Positions 20,282 to 46,816 of a stretch of DNA of 64,000 bases are shown here, one piece after another; positions within the stretch are counted from its first letter, which is position 1, and each line of letters begins with the position of its first letter. The position numbers and the translations under genes are program-made. The stretch is from contig RSEH01000070.1 of the NCBI GenBank assembly GCA_006503475.1, forward strand, positions 109,503 through 173,502. The letters are read 5' to 3'. The stretch is from Stentor roeselii (taxonomy: Eukaryota; Ciliophora; Heterotrichea; Heterotrichida; Stentoridae). The notes under the pieces were generated by a model. The model made no database searches. It was not told the origin of the DNA and worked only from the letters and a program-made list of their open reading frames with translations.

Positions 20282-21970
20282 ATGGTCTCACCCTACTCAG
20301 AAACAATAAAAGTTCAATTATACATTTCCTGTCGCAAGTTAAAAGATGTAGAAACCTTCAGTAAATCCGACCCATTCGTAGAAGTATTCTTGCAGGAGTC
20401 CTCACAATCCTGGACAAAACTCGGCCAAACTGAAGTAATTTGGGACAATCTAAACCCAGACTTTGTGAAATACTTTTCACTAGACTATTACTTTGAACAG
20501 AATCAACTCTTGCTCTTCAAAGTCTTCGATGCGAACATAGAAAATGGAAGAGAAGTGAAAGGTGAGCAGATAGGAGAAGTTAAATGCAGTTTAGGAGAAG
20601 TCGCAGGAGCCAGAGGACAAAAAGTAATAAAAACTCTTCGACTTGGTAATTCAAATGAAAGTACAGGAAATATAATATTAAGGATTGAACAGGTTCTTTC
20701 ACCTAATATGAGCGAAGTATGTATTAACTTTGCAGGAATTAGAATTAAAGAAACAGGATGGGGACTTTGTTGTAGTTTAAATCCTATGTTTTGTCTTTCA
20801 AGGGTCATTGAACATGGATTTCAAAGGGTTTATCTGTCTGAGACTAGCAGAGGAAAGGGACCTATTTGGAGACCTATGGTAAAAACTATGCATGATCTTT
20901 GTAATAGTGATGAAAATCAACTCATTTTATTTGAACTTTTTGATCATAGAAGAAATGGGAATCATAAGTTAATGGGAAAATTTCAGTTCTCTATTAAGAT
21001 GATGTTTGATGGGGTTAAAGTTTTTCAATTGTTTTCTGATCATTCTAGGGAAGTTGGAGAAATACATGTGAATTTTTTTGGATATACTGAAGTTCATGAT
21101 TTTCTTGAGTTTATTGCTGGAGGGTGCCAGATTAACTTGCTTATTGCTGTTGATTTTACTGAGTCTAATCGTGTTCCGACTGATATGAATTCTTTACATT
21201 TTATTTCTAGACAAGGGTATAATCTTTATCAGTCAGCACTTCATTCGGTGTCTGAAATACTGCTTCATTATGACTCAGATAAACAAGTTCCATTATACGG
21301 CTTTGGTGCTAAGATCAACGGTGCCATCAATCATTGTTTTCCACTAAACCTCGACGAAAGTAACCCAGATGTAACCGGATTATCAGGAATAATGGATGCC
21401 TACAAAGCTATCCTTCCACAAATAACATTCAGTGGTCCTACTTATTTCTCCCCAGTCATAAAGTCCGCAGTTACCATAGCTGAACAGGCTCATGTAAATC
21501 AAAATAATCAGCAATATTTCATTTTGTTAATTTTAACTGACGGAGAAATCCACGATATGAGTGAAACAATTGACTGGATTGTAAAAGGATCTCAATTTCC
21601 ATTAAGCATTGTTATTGTAGGCATTGGTAATGCTAAGTTTGATAAAATGGAAATATTGGATGCTGATGATAACCCGCTGATAAACTCGAAGGGAATTAAA
21701 ATGACGAGGGACATTGTTCAGTTTGTACCTTTTAGAAACTTTAGAAATTCATCTGCAGCTTTGACTAGAGAGGTACTTGCTGAAATACCCAGAGAAATTA
21801 CGAATTACTTTAAAATCATGAAAATTGTGCCAAATCCACCGATTCTTTCGGATTTTCCTAATGAATGCACTGATCCTAATTGTTACCCTGAGAATCAGAC
21901 TGATTTACAAGATGATTATAATGATGTTCCAGCTGTTAATTTTTGTAACAATGACCTTTCAAAAGAGTAA
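20282..21970 (+). CDS. Copine, tandem copy 1
   Basis: A protein of 562 residues. Two C2 domains (about 8-130 and 135-255) are followed by a von Willebrand A/copine domain (about 265-510). C2A has the copine hallmark S-C-R-K-L-K-D-x-E-T-F-S-K-S-D-P-F-V, whose Asp residues bind Ca2+. The A domain has the MIDAS-like DFTESN (about 289-294) and a conserved T-D-G-E-I-x-D-M. Copines move to membranes on Ca2+ rise and act in trafficking and signalling. The tail carries a V-P-A-V-N-x-x-N-N-x-x-S-K element that recurs in copy 2. It starts 178 bp from the divergent zinc protein and has the CATTATAAATG start context. Confidence 0.95.
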   Translation: MVSPYSETIKVQLYISCRKLKDVETFSKSDPFVEVFLQESSQSWTKLGQTEVIWDNLNPDFVKYFSLDYYFEQNQLLLFKVFDANIENGREVKGEQIGEVKCSLGEVAGARGQKVIKTLRLGNSNESTGNIILRIEQVLSPNMSEVCINFAGIRIKETGWGLCCSLNPMFCLSRVIEHGFQRVYLSETSRGKGPIWRPMVKTMHDLCNSDENQLILFELFDHRRNGNHKLMGKFQFSIKMMFDGVKVFQLFSDHSREVGEIHVNFFGYTEVHDFLEFIAGGCQINLLIAVDFTESNRVPTDMNSLHFISRQGYNLYQSALHSVSEILLHYDSDKQVPLYGFGAKINGAINHCFPLNLDESNPDVTGLSGIMDAYKAILPQITFSGPTYFSPVIKSAVTIAEQAHVNQNNQQYFILLILTDGEIHDMSETIDWIVKGSQFPLSIVIVGIGNAKFDKMEILDADDNPLINSKGIKMTRDIVQFVPFRNFRNSSAALTREVLAEIPREITNYFKIMKIVPNPPILSDFPNECTDPNCYPENQTDLQDDYNDVPAVNFCNNDLSKE

Positions 21971-22119: not shown

Positions 22120-23886
22120 ATGGCCTCAAGAAATTCTGATGCAGCCACAGTTCAGCTCTATATTTCATGTCGCAAACTAAAAGACGTTGAAACCTTCAGC
22201 AAATCAGACCCATTCGTTGAAGTATTTGAACGCGTATCGACGCCTCAATGGACCAAGCTGGGCCAAACCGAAGTGATTTGGGATAATTTAAATCCAAATT
22301 TTGTGAAGTACTTTTCGCTTGAATATTACTTTGAAGTACAGCAGTTTTTATTGTTTAAAGTCTTTGATGCCAATATTGAACAAGGAAGGGAAGTTAAAGG
22401 TCAGCAGATAGGTGAAGTCGAATGCAGCCTCGGAGAAATCGCTGGAGCGAAAGGACAAACATTGATAAAAGATCTTCATCTTCCAAACCTAAAGAAAAAA
22501 ACAGGAAACATAATCCTTCGAATAGAAAAAGTAGATTCGATAAACATGAGTGAAGTAAAAATAAACTTCGCCGGAAGAAGACTGAAAAGTGCAGGATGGG
22601 GACTTTGCTGCGGTTTAAGTCCTCTTTTCTGTCTTTCAAGAACAATCGAAAGAGGAGTTCAACGAGTTTACATGTCCGAGGCAAGTAAAGGTCCAGAGCC
22701 GATTTGGTTGCCAATGATAAGATCTCTCCATGATCTCTGCAACGGTGATGAAAACCAGGTAATTTTATTTGAACTTTTCGATGAATCTAGAAATGGGACT
22801 CATAAGTTGATTGGAAGTTTTGAGTTCACTTTAAAAATGATCTCAGAAGGGAAGAATATTTTTCAACTGCTCTCATCGAAATCGAAGGATATGGGAGAAA
22901 TCTTCATTCATTTTTTTGAAATTACTGAAATTCATGACTTTCTTCAGTATATTGCTGGAGGTTGTCAGATTAGTCTTATGATTGCTGTTGATTTCACAGG
23001 TTCTAATGGTGATCCGATGACTCCTAATTCTTTGCATTTTATTTCTAATCAAGGGCTTAATCTTTACCAGTCTGCTCTTTATTCAGTTTCAGAAATTCTT
23101 CTGAATTATGATTCGGATAAAGTTGTTCCTTTGTATGGGTTTGGTGCAAAGTTAAACAGGAATATCAGTCATTGTTTTCCACTCAATTTTAATGAAAATA
23201 ATCCGAATGTTTCAGGATTACAAGAAATTATGGAATGTTATAAGAAAGCTCTACCTGTTTTGCAATTCAGTGGTCCGACTTTATTTACACCTGTCATCAG
23301 CACTGCAGTTAAGATGGCTGAAGCGGCTCAGGTGAATCAGTTAAATCAAAATTACTTTATTTTACTGATTCTTACTGATGGAGAGATTCACGATATGAAT
23401 GAAACTATTGATTGGATTGTCAAAGGGTCTTTCAATCCTCTGAGCATCGTGATTGTCGGAATAGGAAATGAAGACTTTTCTAAAATGGAAATTTTAGACG
23501 CTGATGAAAATCCTTTAATAGACTCGAAAGGAGTTAAAATGGCCAGAGATATTGTTCAGTTTGTTCCTTTTAGAAATTTCGGCAATTCCCCAAGTGCTTT
23601 GACGAAAGAAGTACTCGCTGAAATTCCAAGGGAAATTACTAATTTCTTTAAAATGAAGAAAATCATTCCAAATGGGTCAATTATTATAAATGATACATTT
23701 ACAGAAAATCAAATTGAAAACCATAATGAAATGAGGGAAAATCATTTAGAATGCCCAGCTGTGAACCAGCTAAATAATAATTTTTCAAAAGCGGAAAATC
23801 ATCGAGACTCCCCAGGTGTGATCCAGACCAGTAATAATTATTCAATAGTAGTGAGTTCTGATGAAAGTTCTAGTGAAAGCTCTTAG
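22120..23886 (+). CDS. Copine, tandem copy 2
   Basis: A protein of 588 residues, collinear with copy 1: C2A, C2B and copine A domain with DFTGSN and T-D-G-E-I-H-D-M. C2A again reads S-C-R-K-L-K-D-V-E-T-F-S-K-S-D-P-F-V-E-V. The C-terminus is the longest of the three: the tail element of copy 1 appears as two imperfect copies (C-P-A-V-N-Q-x-N-N-x-F-S-K and S-P-G-V-I-Q-x-S-N-N-Y-S), followed by a Ser/Asp/Glu-rich end. Only 149 bp separate it from copy 1. The basic loop of C2B is richer in Lys/Arg than in copy 1, which may alter lipid preference (inference). Confidence 0.95.
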   Translation: MASRNSDAATVQLYISCRKLKDVETFSKSDPFVEVFERVSTPQWTKLGQTEVIWDNLNPNFVKYFSLEYYFEVQQFLLFKVFDANIEQGREVKGQQIGEVECSLGEIAGAKGQTLIKDLHLPNLKKKTGNIILRIEKVDSINMSEVKINFAGRRLKSAGWGLCCGLSPLFCLSRTIERGVQRVYMSEASKGPEPIWLPMIRSLHDLCNGDENQVILFELFDESRNGTHKLIGSFEFTLKMISEGKNIFQLLSSKSKDMGEIFIHFFEITEIHDFLQYIAGGCQISLMIAVDFTGSNGDPMTPNSLHFISNQGLNLYQSALYSVSEILLNYDSDKVVPLYGFGAKLNRNISHCFPLNFNENNPNVSGLQEIMECYKKALPVLQFSGPTLFTPVISTAVKMAEAAQVNQLNQNYFILLILTDGEIHDMNETIDWIVKGSFNPLSIVIVGIGNEDFSKMEILDADENPLIDSKGVKMARDIVQFVPFRNFGNSPSALTKEVLAEIPREITNFFKMKKIIPNGSIIINDTFTENQIENHNEMRENHLECPAVNQLNNNFSKAENHRDSPGVIQTSNNYSIVVSSDESSSESS

Positions 23887-24704: not shown

Positions 24705-26366
24705 ATGGTTGCAAGAAACTCAGATACTGTTAAAGTTCAGTTATATATTTCATGTAGCGGCCTAAAAGATGTAGAAAGATTCAGCAAATCAGATCCATTT
24801 GTAGAGGTATTCGAGTCAATATCACCGAATGAATGGTTGAAGCTAGGTCAAACTGAGGTAGTTTGGAATAATTTAAACCCGAACTTTGTGAAATACTTTT
24901 CATTTGATTATCACTTTGAGGAGAAGAAACTTTTGCTTTTTAGTGTTTTCGATGCCAACATTGAAAATGGAATAGAATGCAAAGGGGAAAAAATTGGTGA
25001 AGTTGAATGCAGCCTTGGAGAAATCGTTGGAGCGCAAGGTCAAAGAGTATCAAAATCTCTCCACCTTCCAAATGATAATAAAACTACAGGAACCATTCAA
25101 TTACGACTGGAAAAAGTAGAATCATCAAACTTGAATGAACTTAAGATAAAATTTGAAGGAAGAAGACTAAAAAATAACATATGTGGATGTTTCAGGTTTG
25201 ATCCAATGTTTTATATATCAAGAATCATCGAAGAAGGTAATCAAATAATTTACAAGTCAGAGCCGAGTAAAGGAAAAGAGCCTTCTTGGAATGAAATGAT
25301 AAAATCATTTCATGATCTTTGCAATGGTCAAGAAATCCAGCCTATTTTATTTCAACTTTTTGATTACTCCCGAAGTGGAAATCATAAACTTATTGGAAGT
25401 TTCGAGTTTAACCTGAAGATGATCTTTGATGGGAAAAATGAATTTAAACTGCTTTCTAAAAATTCAAATGAAGTGGGAGAAATTATTGTTCAATCTTACA
25501 AAATAACAGAAGTTCATAATTATTATGAGTTTATTGCAGGAGGGTGTGAAATTAGTCTCATGATCGCTGTTGACTTCACAGGTTCTAATGGTGATCCGAT
25601 GAATCCTAGTTCATTACATTTTATATCTAATCAAGGATTCAACCTTTACCAATCAGCTCTTTATTCAGTTTCAGAAATTCTCTTAGATTTTGATGATGAT
25701 AAAGAAGTTCCTTTTTATGGATTTGGTGCTAAGATTGACAATAGAATTAATCATTGTTTTCCTTTAAATTTTGATGGAAATAATCCTAGTGTTTCAGGAT
25801 TATCAGGAATAATGGAAACTTATAAAAATGTTTTACCTCGATTGCAATTCAGTGGTCCTACTTTATTTACACCTGTGATAAGTAATGCAGTTACAATAGC
25901 TGAAAAGGCTAATGTGACTCAGTTAAATCAAAAATACTTTGTTTTACTGATTCTGACTGATGGAGAGATTTACGATATGGTTGAAACTATTGATTGGATT
26001 GTCAAAGGGTCTTTCAATCCTCTAAGTATTGTAATTGTTGGAATTGGAAATGAAGACTTTTCTAAAATGGAAATTTTAGGAGCTAATGAAAAACCTTTAA
26101 TAGACTCGAAAGGAGTTAAAATGGCAAGAGATATTGTTCAGTTTGTACCTTTTAGAAAATTCGGCAATTCCCCAAGTGCTTTGACGAAAGAAGTACTTGC
26201 TGAAATTCCAAGGGAAATTACTAATTACTTTAAAATGAAGGAAATAATTCCAAATGAGCTAATTATAGAAAATAATCCATTACCCGGTCCTCTTCCTTAT
26301 ATTCCCCCTTTTAATCCAAATGAAGGAGATATGTGTCAGATTCCAAACTTATCTAATAGGATTTGA
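24705..26366 (+). CDS. Copine, tandem copy 3
   Basis: A protein of 553 residues with the same C2A-C2B-A domain order. C2A reads S-C-S-G-L-K-D-V-E-R-F-S-K-S-D-P-F-V-E-V, so the helix before the Ca2+ loop differs from copies 1 and 2. The MIDAS-like DFTGSN and T-D-G-E-I-Y-D-M are intact. The C-terminal 35 residues are Pro/Asn-rich and lack the tail element of the other two copies. Residues of about 180-200 (C2B) replace the C-C pair of the other copies (GLCCSL, GLCCGL) with CGCFRF. The start is less typical (GCAAGATG). From about codon 280 onward the protein and DNA are closest to copy 2, which suggests later divergence or gene conversion there. Confidence 0.94.
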   Translation: MVARNSDTVKVQLYISCSGLKDVERFSKSDPFVEVFESISPNEWLKLGQTEVVWNNLNPNFVKYFSFDYHFEEKKLLLFSVFDANIENGIECKGEKIGEVECSLGEIVGAQGQRVSKSLHLPNDNKTTGTIQLRLEKVESSNLNELKIKFEGRRLKNNICGCFRFDPMFYISRIIEEGNQIIYKSEPSKGKEPSWNEMIKSFHDLCNGQEIQPILFQLFDYSRSGNHKLIGSFEFNLKMIFDGKNEFKLLSKNSNEVGEIIVQSYKITEVHNYYEFIAGGCEISLMIAVDFTGSNGDPMNPSSLHFISNQGFNLYQSALYSVSEILLDFDDDKEVPFYGFGAKIDNRINHCFPLNFDGNNPSVSGLSGIMETYKNVLPRLQFSGPTLFTPVISNAVTIAEKANVTQLNQKYFVLLILTDGEIYDMVETIDWIVKGSFNPLSIVIVGIGNEDFSKMEILGANEKPLIDSKGVKMARDIVQFVPFRKFGNSPSALTKEVLAEIPREITNYFKMKEIIPNELIIENNPLPGPLPYIPPFNPNEGDMCQIPNLSNRI

Positions 26367-26586: not shown

Positions 26587-27603
26587 ATGAAAAAACACAC
26601 TTCATCAGGTGTTCATTTAAAAGTAAGTATCGGCAAAACATCTAGAACCTGCTCATCATCCACCCTACGGAAAAAAACTCCTCTAACCCCAAGCCAAACA
26701 AATTCCCAGAAAGATCTCCACACACGTCACCTGTCTCCATTCCAACAAGCGACAAGCACAACAACAATTTACAAAAGTCTTCTTCCTTCATTTTGCCGTC
26801 TTCCAACAAGTCCAACAAGCGGTCCTCAATTACTTCAAACAACTGGAGAAAGAACAAAAGCTTTAAAAGCCTTAAAAGACAAAAGTTTAAAAATAGGTCT
26901 AAATGAAGAGACTTCCTTTATAATGAACGGAAAAAGTTCAGACCTTTCAAATTTTTTCAACTTTTCCATAAAAATCTTCGACTTGACTTTAAATTCAAGA
27001 GATCTTCTAAGTTTCCGTCTTGAAAACATGTTAACCTCAAGATCTTTCGAGGCAAGTCTAAAAATAATGGTGAAAAAAAATCGTTCTGGAATTTTTCACA
27101 AGTCTAAAAGTTTAAAAGAAACTTACATAATCCCACTTTCACTGAGTTTATCTTTATTTTCTCCAGGACAATCACCAGAGACTTTAGAAAACCTTGAAAA
27201 ACCATCGAAAAACTTAGCGAAATTCGAGTAAAAACTACTTAGAATGATTGTTTTTCCGATATTTTTCGAGTACTGGACAGTCGCTTTTTGTGACTTGACT
27301 TGCAAGTCTTTAAAGTTTTACGACCCAGTAGGAATTGAGTCTGATGACCGCAGGGTGAAGGTCGTGATCAGGAACTATCTGCAGGACCTGCAATGGCCGG
27401 GGGATAAGTCGATTTACTCTTTTAAATACGAAAATATCACAGAAACCGAAGTTTATGACCATGTCGACTCTTCTATTTATGTCTTGATGCAGGTCTTTAA
27501 ACAAAGTTTAAAGAAAGACTTCGAAGTGTCTCCAGAAAATATTGAAATGTTCAGAAGACAGATGTTGTACTACACACTTAAACATGGAAGAAGGATTAAT
27601 TAA
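26587..27603 (+). CDS. Ulp1/SENP-like protein with degenerate catalytic residues (probable pseudoprotease)
   Basis: The CDS is join(26587..27227, 27243..27603), 333 residues, spliced by GTAAAAACTACTTAG. Residues 1-110 are a basic Ser/Thr-rich tail. Residues of about 127-330 follow the Ulp1 protease fold in order: F-D-L-T-L-N-S-R-D-L-L-S-F-R-L-E-N, then V-F-P-I-F-F-E-Y-W-T-V-A-F-C-D-L, F-Y-D-P, D-H-V-D-S-S-I-Y-V and a final F-R-R-Q-M-L-Y-Y-T-L helix. In active enzymes these hold H-W, the catalytic Asp, and Q...D-C-G. Here Tyr224 stands for His, Asp241 is kept, and Ser290 stands for Cys. SUMO or NEDD8 binding without cleavage is inferred. The stop codon overlaps that of the convergent F-box-VLRF1 gene. 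Confidence 0.78.
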
Positions 27604-28600
27604 GTACACGAAGTAACAACCTGCATTTCGATATCTCTGAAAAAACTCTTTCAGCTTCTTGTAACTTCGCTTTTCCTGTAGTGATCCCGACAGCTCTGAC
27701 CTTATCTTTCCATTTCTGTAGAAGTCCATCTTCTCCAATAAAAGTGAAATAATTGATTCCAGGAGCATGTAAAAAAATCAGACTTGCTTTATCCAAAACA
27801 TTTTCACATCCTCCCAAGATACTTTCAATATTTTCCGCATGTTTTTTTTCATTTTCTCTTCGAATGCTGGCTCCTTTCGAATGAATTCCTGATCCTTGCT
27901 TATCAGCAGTGGACTGTCTTCCACCCTGTTTTTTCCTAGCAACGTATTTATGATCAGAATGACTTTTATCCAGTTGCCCATTTGCTTTAAAAGAAGCGAT
28001 GTTGAAATTGCCTCCATGACAAAGAATCACAACAGTCTCTCGCCAGTTCCTTACATGTTTCATCGCGTTTTTCTTTTGATATTCAAAAATTTCTTCTCTG
28101 TTCTTTTTGACCTTCTCCAGAAGTTTCTGCTGTCGTCTAAGAAGCATGGCAGGGTTGGAAAAGTCGATGTCTTCGTTTAAGTCGCTTGCATCGGCCAAGC
28201 AGTTAAAAGATGAAGAGTCTTCAATTGATGGAACTTCGACGAGAGATGAGTGAAGGACCAGCTTGTCTCCGAAATGATTTGAAAAGATGGAAGTCCCATT
28301 TTCGCTTGATTCATAGGTGAATGGCATATGCTTTAAAAGTAAAGGCAGGGAAAATAGTTGAAGGTCGATCGGGTGGTAGGTCATGGAATGGAAGTTTATA
28401 GTTGAGAATTTTTTACGGTTTTTCGGGTATAGGTGAGAAAGTCGGAAGGATTCGTATTTTAGTTCTATGTCGAAGAGTGGCGAAAGTGTGGACTTTAGCA
28501 GGAGGTGAAGTGACCTGCTCGTTGAAGCCAGTTGTACCCGATCTTGATGTGTTAGGAACTTCGCCACTTGGCAAAGTGGCAGATTGTTGAAAGATGTCAT
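27596..28600 (-). CDS. F-box plus VLRF1 domain protein (Vms1/ANKZF1-type peptidyl-tRNA hydrolase)
   Basis: A protein of 334 residues. Residues 4-40 look like an F-box (L-P-x-x-x-V-x-x-F-L-x-x-x-D-R-V-x-L-A-S-T-S-R). Residues of about 185-332 are a full VLRF1 domain: V-V-I-L-C-H-G-G-N-F-x-I-A-S-F, H-K-Y-V-A-R-K-K-Q-G-G-R-Q-S (Gln229 at the catalytic GG-x-Q), D-K-Q-G-S, S-K-G-A-S-I-R-R-E-N-E and I-F-L-H-A-P-G. In yeast Vms1 and human ANKZF1 this domain frees stalled nascent chains from 60S-bound tRNA in ribosome quality control. The usual zinc finger, ankyrin repeats and VIM (p97 binding) are absent. Linking VLRF1 to an F-box would join it to SCF ligases (inference). Confidence 0.85.
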   Translation of the reverse strand: MTSFNNLPLCQVAKFLTHQDRVQLASTSRSLHLLLKSTLSPLFDIELKYESFRLSHLYPKNRKKFSTINFHSMTYHPIDLQLFSLPLLLKHMPFTYESSENGTSIFSNHFGDKLVLHSSLVEVPSIEDSSSFNCLADASDLNEDIDFSNPAMLLRRQQKLLEKVKKNREEIFEYQKKNAMKHVRNWRETVVILCHGGNFNIASFKANGQLDKSHSDHKYVARKKQGGRQSTADKQGSGIHSKGASIRRENEKKHAENIESILGGCENVLDKASLIFLHAPGINYFTFIGEDGLLQKWKDKVRAVGITTGKAKLQEAERVFSEISKCRLLLRVLN

Positions 28601-28640: not shown

Positions 28641-29243
28641 CTAGTACCCGTTCTCGCGTTCATGTTCTTCAAGGTGGCTTAGGCTGTAATCTCCATTTAC
28701 TTGACTTTCTGACCTGTGCAAAGATATTGCCAAGTTTGTGCTGTTTAACTCGTTTAGCTCGAAGGCTGGAAATATTTTGTATTTGAATTCGACTTGGACT
28801 AGACATATTGACTTTAACAGTTTTACCATTATACCCATCGAGCAGAAGAATAAAAAGAAAAAACCCAGGATTATTCCTAAAAACATACCGATGCTTTTTT
28901 TGGGGTTTGCATAGTCTTTTTGGATTACAACATACAGAAGTACCAACAAAATAGATACAATCATCACTAAAATACAACAATAACACACTTGTTGAGGGTT
29001 CCTATCAATACAATTCCTCGGATCACAAATAACTTTCTTCAAAGAATGAATTTTATAAAAATACTTACAAACTTCACATTGTTTCCTTGAAATTCCTCCA
29101 TCCCTATCCCTAATCCAAGATTTCAAGCAATTTTCATGTATAAACTTCGAAGACCCGTTACATTTACAAGGTGTAAACAAAGGATTATCTTGACTTTCCT
29201 CTTCAAAGCAGATTCTACAGACCCTCGAAGCATCTTGTTCCAT
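28641..29243 (-). CDS. MARCH-type RING-CH E3 ligase, two membrane helices
   Basis: A protein of 200 residues. Residues 8-61 form a C4HC3 RING-CH (RINGv) finger: Cys9, Cys12, Cys26, Cys28, His36, Cys39, Cys56, Cys59, with the family's W-I-R after the His-Cys pair. Two hydrophobic helices follow at about 87-107 and 119-145, then a 55-residue cytosolic tail. This is the standard MARCH layout: an E3 that ubiquitinates membrane proteins of the endosomal, ER or Golgi system. The substrate is unknown. It lies 40 bp downstream of the start of the F-box-VLRF1 gene. Confidence 0.93.
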   Translation of the reverse strand: MEQDASRVCRICFEEESQDNPLFTPCKCNGSSKFIHENCLKSWIRDRDGGISRKQCEVCKYFYKIHSLKKVICDPRNCIDRNPQQVCYCCILVMIVSILLVLLYVVIQKDYANPKKSIGMFLGIILGFFFLFFCSMGIMVKLLKSICLVQVEFKYKIFPAFELNELNSTNLAISLHRSESQVNGDYSLSHLEEHERENGY

Positions 29244-45391: not shown

Positions 45392-46816
45392 ATGAATTTG
45401 AACCTAATGAGTCAAGAAAGAGTGAAAATCGACATATCAAAGTGCCAATACCCGATCCTTAAAGAAATATTAAAAGACTTAAAATGGGACATCGACTTCG
45501 AAGACGACCCAGACATAATATGGCAAGACTCAGCCTTATCACCGACATCACTTTCACTCTTAAACTCATACCAACGAATAAACCATTTCCCAGGCATATA
45601 CGCGATAAGCCGAAAAGACTACTTAGCCCGTCACCTAAAAACGATGGAATTGTTAAACCCAGGTGAATTCCAGTTCTTTCCAGAAACCTGGGTAGTCCCA
45701 CAAGAGTTTCAGTCTTTAAAAACTTTCATAGTCTCAACGAACGCGACTCTGATAGTAAAGCCTCCAAACCTATCACAAGGCAAAGGAATCTTCCTGACTC
45801 GCTGGGCTCAGGACATTCCAGAGACCTGCGTGGTTCAGAGGTACCTCGAAAACCCTTTTTTGTTAGACGGTTTCAAGTTTGACCTGCGGATTTACGTCTT
45901 GATCACTGGCTTCGACCCTTTAAGAGTCTACATTCATGAAGACGGCCTTGTCCGCTTGGCCACTAGTCCTTATTGCAAACCGAGTGACATGAACATGTCA
46001 AATGTCTTCATGCATTTAACCAACTACGCCATCAACAAGGCAAGCCCCGGGTACCTTGTCGGGAGAAAAGGAGAGGATTTCACAGGACATAAAAGAAGTT
46101 TCAAAGTTTTTTTAGAAAAACTTGAAGAGGATGGACTTAACTCCAGGAAGTTAATCAGGAGAATTGATGATATCATCTTGAAAACTCTTTGCACTGTACA
46201 GCCATTCCTTGCTCATCAGTATCGCGCTTGTCAACCGAATGACTCGTATTCGGCGATTTGCTTTCAAATTCTTGGATTCGATATTTTTCTTGACTCGAGG
46301 TTGAGGCCACATTTGTTGGAAGTCAATCATACTCCAAGCTTTTCGACTGACTCTAATCTTGACTTTCAGATAAAAAAAGCAGTGATTAAAGATTGTCTCA
46401 AAATGGTCGGGGTCAGAGCTGAATGTTCTAAAATTTTTGAACAGGAAAAAAATAACTTTTTGAATGAAAAGGTTTATAAAAGCTTTGGAAAGGTCAGAGA
46501 TTTGAGGACTGAGAGGAAAGATCGGTTTCTTCAGCAGCAGATTGAAAATGAGAATTGTAATATGGGAGGGTATCGAAGAGTCTTTCCATGTGAAAATAAG
46601 GAGAGATATCAAAAGTTCATGAATGATGCTCAAGGAATTTTCAGTAATAAAACCATCGTTAAAAAGAATAAAATTGAAATGAAAGAGACTCCGAAAATTC
46701 GAAAGAGTACAGTTCATAGATTTATTCGTTCAAAAGAACCAGTTCAGGTTCAAAGACGGAAGAGTTGCATAACAAAAGTCTCTTTGCGTCCAACAATAAT
46801 CCAACTTACTTTGTAA
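45392..46816 (+). CDS. Tubulin tyrosine ligase-like enzyme (probable polyglutamylase)
   Basis: A protein of 474 residues. Core TTLL blocks are visible: N-H-F-P-G (about 65), the ATP-grasp segment I-V-K-P-P-x-x-x-x-G-K-G-I (about 120), V-V-Q-R-Y-L-x-N-P-x-L-x-D-G-F-K-F-D-L-R-I-Y-V-L, M-H-L-T-N-Y-A-I-N-K, and L-E-V-N-H-T-P-S-F (the Mg/ATP Glu and Asn). The order and wording match the glutamylase group (TTLL4/5/6/7/13) more than the tyrosine ligase or glycylases, but the exact type needs a tree. The basic 120-residue C-terminus may bind microtubules. The enzyme adds Glu chains to tubulin in cilia and cortex. The end is 20 bp from a convergent gene. Confidence 0.93.
   Translation: MNLNLMSQERVKIDISKCQYPILKEILKDLKWDIDFEDDPDIIWQDSALSPTSLSLLNSYQRINHFPGIYAISRKDYLARHLKTMELLNPGEFQFFPETWVVPQEFQSLKTFIVSTNATLIVKPPNLSQGKGIFLTRWAQDIPETCVVQRYLENPFLLDGFKFDLRIYVLITGFDPLRVYIHEDGLVRLATSPYCKPSDMNMSNVFMHLTNYAINKASPGYLVGRKGEDFTGHKRSFKVFLEKLEEDGLNSRKLIRRIDDIILKTLCTVQPFLAHQYRACQPNDSYSAICFQILGFDIFLDSRLRPHLLEVNHTPSFSTDSNLDFQIKKAVIKDCLKMVGVRAECSKIFEQEKNNFLNEKVYKSFGKVRDLRTERKDRFLQQQIENENCNMGGYRRVFPCENKERYQKFMNDAQGIFSNKTIVKKNKIEMKETPKIRKSTVHRFIRSKEPVQVQRRKSCITKVSLRPTIIQLTL

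Follow-up and report, generated by a model that had tools for sequence, protein, structure and literature searches.

Can a factor that frees stalled nascent chains from the large ribosomal subunit also carry its own connection to a ubiquitin ligase? The question arises from a gene of the ciliate Stentor roeselii whose predicted product places an F-box-like segment in front of a VLRF1 release-factor domain. The gene lies in a stretch of 64,000 nucleotides of contig RSEH01000070.1, which we analysed as a whole and call the window. In window coordinates, the gene, its parts and its convergent neighbour are as follows.

27596..28600, minus strand: predicted F-box/VLRF1 protein gene, 334 aa, ATG at 28598-28600 and TAA at 27596-27598
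28490..28579, minus strand: F-box-like segment, residues 8-37, below the cut-off of PF00646 and matched by an F-box profile built from the same genome
28034..28489, minus strand: middle region, residues 38-189, without a Pfam match
27620..28033, minus strand: VLRF1 release-factor domain, residues 190-327, matched by Pfam bVLRF1 and by Vms1 in the PDB
27914..27925, minus strand: catalytic loop GGRQ, residues 226-229, with Gln229 aligned with the catalytic Gln of Vms1
26587-27603, plus strand: relative of the ULP/SENP (C48) proteases, with a predicted intron at 27228-27242, matched by a C48 profile built from the same genome

Both profile and structure databases identify the C-terminal part of the protein. 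Pfam bVLRF1 (PF18826) matched residues 190-327 with 112.5 bits (E 2.1e-32), far over its cut-off of 27, and the sole matches of a PDB search at E <= 1 were three Vms1 sequences (E 9.7e-11 to 1.7e-10, residues 215-329), of which chain 5whg was the best at E 9.7e-11 over the same residues. Within the GGRQ loop, Q229 is in register with the catalytic Gln in the GGSQ of Vms1, so that both the VLRF1 domain and the intact GG-x-Q site named by an earlier, sequence-only reading of this DNA hold up. The residues at the place of GGQ vary within the family: yeast has GSQ and human TAQ (PMC6344382), and the S. roeselii protein has GRQ. A tRNA endonuclease activity is reported for ANKZF1 as well (PMC6344382), and a later review describes Vms1/ANKZF1 as an endonuclease cutting the CCA tail (PMC12868832). 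The chemistry of the predicted release factor may be either release or CCA-tail cleavage.

In the whole genome (44.4 Mb, 522 contigs), PF18826 matched a single gene, the one described here, and a search with its protein as query at E <= 1 recovered itself alone; these searches were made exon by exon, and genes split by introns could escape detection. A candidate second VLRF1 gene, an acVLRF1 match on another contig, turned out to be eRF1, with all three eRF1 domains present. By these matches it is the one Vms1/ANKZF1 homologue (eVLRF-1 family) that we detect in the S. roeselii genome, the F-box/VLRF1 gene.

The protein shares the VLRF1 domain and its catalytic Gln with yeast Vms1 and human ANKZF1 but differs from them in having no zinc finger, ankyrin repeats, VATC domain or VIM, and in the F-box-like segment that it carries in front. 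A Pfam scan of the 334 residues returned no ankyrin, zinc-finger or VATC match, and neither a C2H2 nor a CxxC pattern occurs in a protein with 5 Cys in all. The p97-binding motif (VIM), for which we assumed the pattern RX5AAX2R, was also absent from the 334 residues, its loose form included, and the protein ends 7 residues past the VLRF1 match. The missing zinc finger, ankyrin repeats and VIM had been part of the sequence-only reading, and the scan and the pattern search bear them out.

The same reading had presented an F-box joined to VLRF1 as a new arrangement, which it is not. Burroughs and Aravind reported in 2019 that eVLRF-1 proteins of Naegleria and some ciliates have an N-terminal F-box, setting these lineages apart from those with a Rei1-type zinc finger, ankyrin repeats, treble clef and VIM (PMC6514570, section 2.2). 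The F-box is named once in the main text of that paper, section 2.2 proposes no role for it, and among the literature that we searched on F-box forms of Vms1 this paper provided the only direct statement. The S. roeselii gene thus looks like a further example of the published domain order. Compared by domain order only, the Naegleria and ciliate proteins have in common with it an F-box on a bVLRF-1-like core, and the putative F-box of S. roeselii is degenerate. The best Pfam match of the S. roeselii domain is the bVLRF-1 family of Bacteroidetes (PF18826), and bacterial and archaeal bVLRF-1 members are described as standalone (PMC6514570). The middle region (residues 38-189) may be the site of the N-terminal extension that the same paper describes for bVLRF-1/eVLRF-1. 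Prokaryote genomes, viral contigs and plasmids yielded no homologue with this domain order, a result of little weight, as ciliates are not expected there and even the Bacteroidetes family went unrecovered.

What might an F-box do on such a protein? In the family as known, Vms1/ANKZF1 acts at the 60S subunit, where it releases the stalled chain from peptidyl-tRNA, and extraction of the chain falls to Cdc48 (PMC6344382, PMC12868832). The explanation we favour, with moderate confidence, is that the S. roeselii protein is a homologue of the eVLRF-1 family in its published F-box form, which would release nascent chains from stalled 60S subunits while tethered to Skp1. On a split 60S subunit with peptidyl-tRNA still bound, the VLRF1 domain would move into the empty A site and use Gln229 to free the stalled chain, while the F-box would bind Skp1 and so keep at the subunit either an SCF ligase or Skp1 by itself. 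An SCF held there might add ubiquitin to the nascent chain beside a Listerin-like ligase, or it might govern the turnover of the release factor itself; these two outcomes are alike at the level of sequence and cannot be told apart there. A link between the protein and an SCF ligase, as the sequence-only reading had imagined it, is plausible. More doubtful is the stronger proposal that in this lineage a Skp1 link to SCF replaces the VIM link to Cdc48/p97 in the release step of RQC, with the release factor bringing a second ubiquitin ligase to the stalled 60S subunit beside Listerin.

The genome holds the partners that such a mechanism would call on. It encodes a canonical Skp1 of 161 aa (97.6 bits, PF01466 and PF03931; locus L034, 1171-1656), one of 6 Skp1-family matches, together with 8 cullin matches, 7 of them over the cut-off. 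On the RQC side we found a NEMF/Rqc2 protein of 952 aa with NFACT_N, NFACT-R and NFACT-C, two matches to Tcf25, which we take to be Rqc1, and a protein of 1416 aa whose C-terminus carries UBC_like and RING. From its domain order, the 1416-aa protein appears to be Listerin-like; a genome search with the Ltn1 N-terminal family returned nothing, and its controls were silent too. Its presence rules out SCF as a necessary replacement for Listerin, and an F-box would therefore not be needed to fill a Listerin gap.

That same inventory favours a second and less probable explanation, in which the F-box is real and serves to keep the release factor scarce, by SCF self-ubiquitination or by Skp1 binding without a ligase role, while the Listerin-like ligase alone marks the chains. 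With the Listerin-like gene, NEMF and Tcf25 all present, there is no gap for a second ligase to fill. Nothing direct stands against this explanation, which sequence does not distinguish from the one we favour; the two overlap, because our favoured explanation of Skp1-tethered release leaves the outcome of Skp1 binding undecided. A working F-box would give eukaryotes at least two couplings of nascent-chain release to ubiquitin signalling, one from VIM to Cdc48 and one from F-box to Skp1, and a compact protein of 334 aa in a genome with both RQC and SCF genes would make a workable test case.

All of this depends on whether the N-terminal helices are an F-box. We consider a degenerate F-box at the N-terminus probable, though not proven, because it is recognised by a profile made from the F-boxes of the same genome and because an F-box has been published for some ciliates. 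The alternative, that these helices form a helical cap or a leucine-rich segment with a convergent likeness to the F-box, is unlikely, though the general models speak for it. PF00646 (F-box) scores residues 8-37 at 13.8 bits (E 0.057), under its cut-off of 20.5, and PF12937 (F-box-like) gives the protein 11.9 bits, under its cut-off of 24.3. The Pfam F-box search of the genome at E <= 1 produced 57 matches (40 over the cut-off, 17 under), and the gene is absent from that list. Also on the side of a cap, the canonical Leu-Pro before helix 1 is out of register: the match starts at profile position 8, and the Leu-Pro (residues 7-8) is, by eye, separated from the helix 1 Phe-Leu by about three residues fewer than in most of the F-boxes used to build the profile. 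An alpha-helical N-terminal domain is, moreover, described in kinetoplastid proteins (PMC6514570), the same paper that places an F-box at this position in some ciliates.

Against a convergent cap stands the own-genome profile, seeded with the 30 best genomic F-box matches (L004-L033) and with the gene itself excluded. It scores the protein at 18.7 bits (E 6.6e-8 for a single sequence), with residues 8-37 on profile positions 8-37, and the maximum over 2000 whole-protein shuffles is 8.4 bits. The first 45 residues alone reach 23.2 bits, compared with 11.5 for the best of 5000 shuffles. When 195 ORFs were scored (those of at least 100 aa in the window and in 46 loci), 26 training members ranked above the protein and the other 168 reached at most 9.7 bits. 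Leaving out one seed at a time, 4 of the 30 held-out members fell below the protein in the same run, and the protein itself ranged from 13.8 to 19.5 bits over the 30 runs, its minimum coming without L033, a seed that is itself doubtful and scores 7.6 bits when held out.

The dependence of the score on the choice of seeds is a further point for the cap. Without L033, the 13.8 bits of the protein compare with 10.4 for the next ORF and 6.2 for the best whole-protein shuffle; without the four weakest seeds, the figures are 14.2, 10.7 and 5.5; and with 19 of the 30 seeds, the protein falls to 9.5 bits, the next ORF, an unrelated one that is not an F-box protein, standing at 9.2 and the best whole-protein shuffle at 8.0. 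The first 45 residues fare better, at 18.3 bits against 12.1 for the best of the shuffles without L033, 18.8 against 9.8 (best of 5000) without the four weakest seeds, and 14.1 against 9.6 (best of 5000) with the 19-seed profile. The F-box score therefore lies over background with every seed set, with a shrinking margin that is bare with 19 seeds, and is not robust. The sequence-only reading had placed an F-box at the N-terminus and had named a score below F-box thresholds as evidence against it. By the general Pfam model the helix does fall below threshold; by the own-genome profile it stands above background, if not robustly, and the pairing of an F-box with VLRF1 is the probable reading. 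AlphaFold2, run on the single sequence without an alignment, gave a model with a mean pLDDT of 38.2, which is unusable. Among the seed proteins, six of about 400 aa (L006, L010, L015, L018, L021 and L024) have similar N-terminal F-boxes and apparently form an expanded family.

The gene model that underlies these comparisons is simple. One open frame of 334 codons runs from ATG to TAA on the minus strand of the window (27596-28600), and an in-frame TAA precedes the ATG, separated from it by five codons. The next gene upstream, on the same strand at 28641-29243, encodes a RING-variant protein (PF12906, 56.4 bits), presumably MARCH-type; it ends 40 bases from the F-box/VLRF1 gene, and those 40 bases contain no GT..AG stretch of 15 or 16 bases. 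The coding frame itself has five GT..AG stretches of 16 bases and none of 15, and excision of any of the 16-base stretches would break a frame that is open throughout. Given the upstream TAA, the close upstream gene, the lack of GT..AG candidates in the gap and the open frame, the gene model is most likely complete. Exons hidden behind tiny introns could in principle mean that the usual Vms1 domains belong to a longer isoform and that this model is an artefact, which is very improbable in view of the TAA, of the short upstream gap and of the single bVLRF1 match in the genome, and also of a genome search with the VATC profile that returned nothing, the last of little weight as its controls were equally silent.

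Spacings of GTA..AG number 94 at a length of 15, compared with 55-86 at other lengths from 10 to 30, and GTA..TAG and GT..TAG spacings show no excess; the 15-base GT..AG excess is weak and no proof of heterotrich-type introns. Long uninterrupted frames occur at the NEMF/Rqc2, Listerin-like and cullin loci of the genome. Stop-to-stop frames of at least 200 codons in the window, with genes and chance frames pooled, end in TAA 17 times, in TAG 14 times and in TGA 5 times. These stop codons, the long frames and a tubulin-ligase-like gene at 45392-46816 fit a heterotrich, or more broadly a ciliate, as the source. A code in which TGA is read as Trp, as given for Blepharisma (PMC9942806), leaves no sign in the window, where TGA ends those 5 frames.

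The convergent neighbour at 26587-27603 overlaps the F-box/VLRF1 gene by 8 bases at the 3' ends (27596-27603), and beyond this adjacency we see nothing that links the two in function. From the frame and its GT..AG ends, we infer an intron of 15 bases at 27228-27242. General searches give little: a Pfam scan of the protein had no match, a genome search with Pfam C48 at E <= 10 had 10 matches that do not include it, and a PDB search reached SENP2 at E 0.29. A C48 profile seeded with 9 C48 loci of the genome (L062 was left out) scores it at 57.6 bits, with 16.8 for the best of 2000 shuffles, and the second exon alone receives 49.8 bits, the next ORF 6.8. The neighbour had been called a relative of SUMO proteases, and the profile agrees, though alignments inspected by eye have Tyr in place of the catalytic His and Ser in place of the catalytic Cys. 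Such losses are common among the seed loci as judged by eye: L053-L055 keep His and Cys, L056 keeps His only and L057-L061 have neither, so that 6 of the 9 C48 loci (L056-L061) are without the Cys and form an apparent family of pseudo-SUMO-proteases.

Elsewhere in the window, three copine-like genes stand in tandem on the plus strand (20282-21970, 22120-23886 and 24705-26366) and are alike in their C-terminal halves. The third matches Pfam Copine at 228.3 bits, and the other two were recognised by eye, as was a tubulin-ligase-like gene at 45392-46816.
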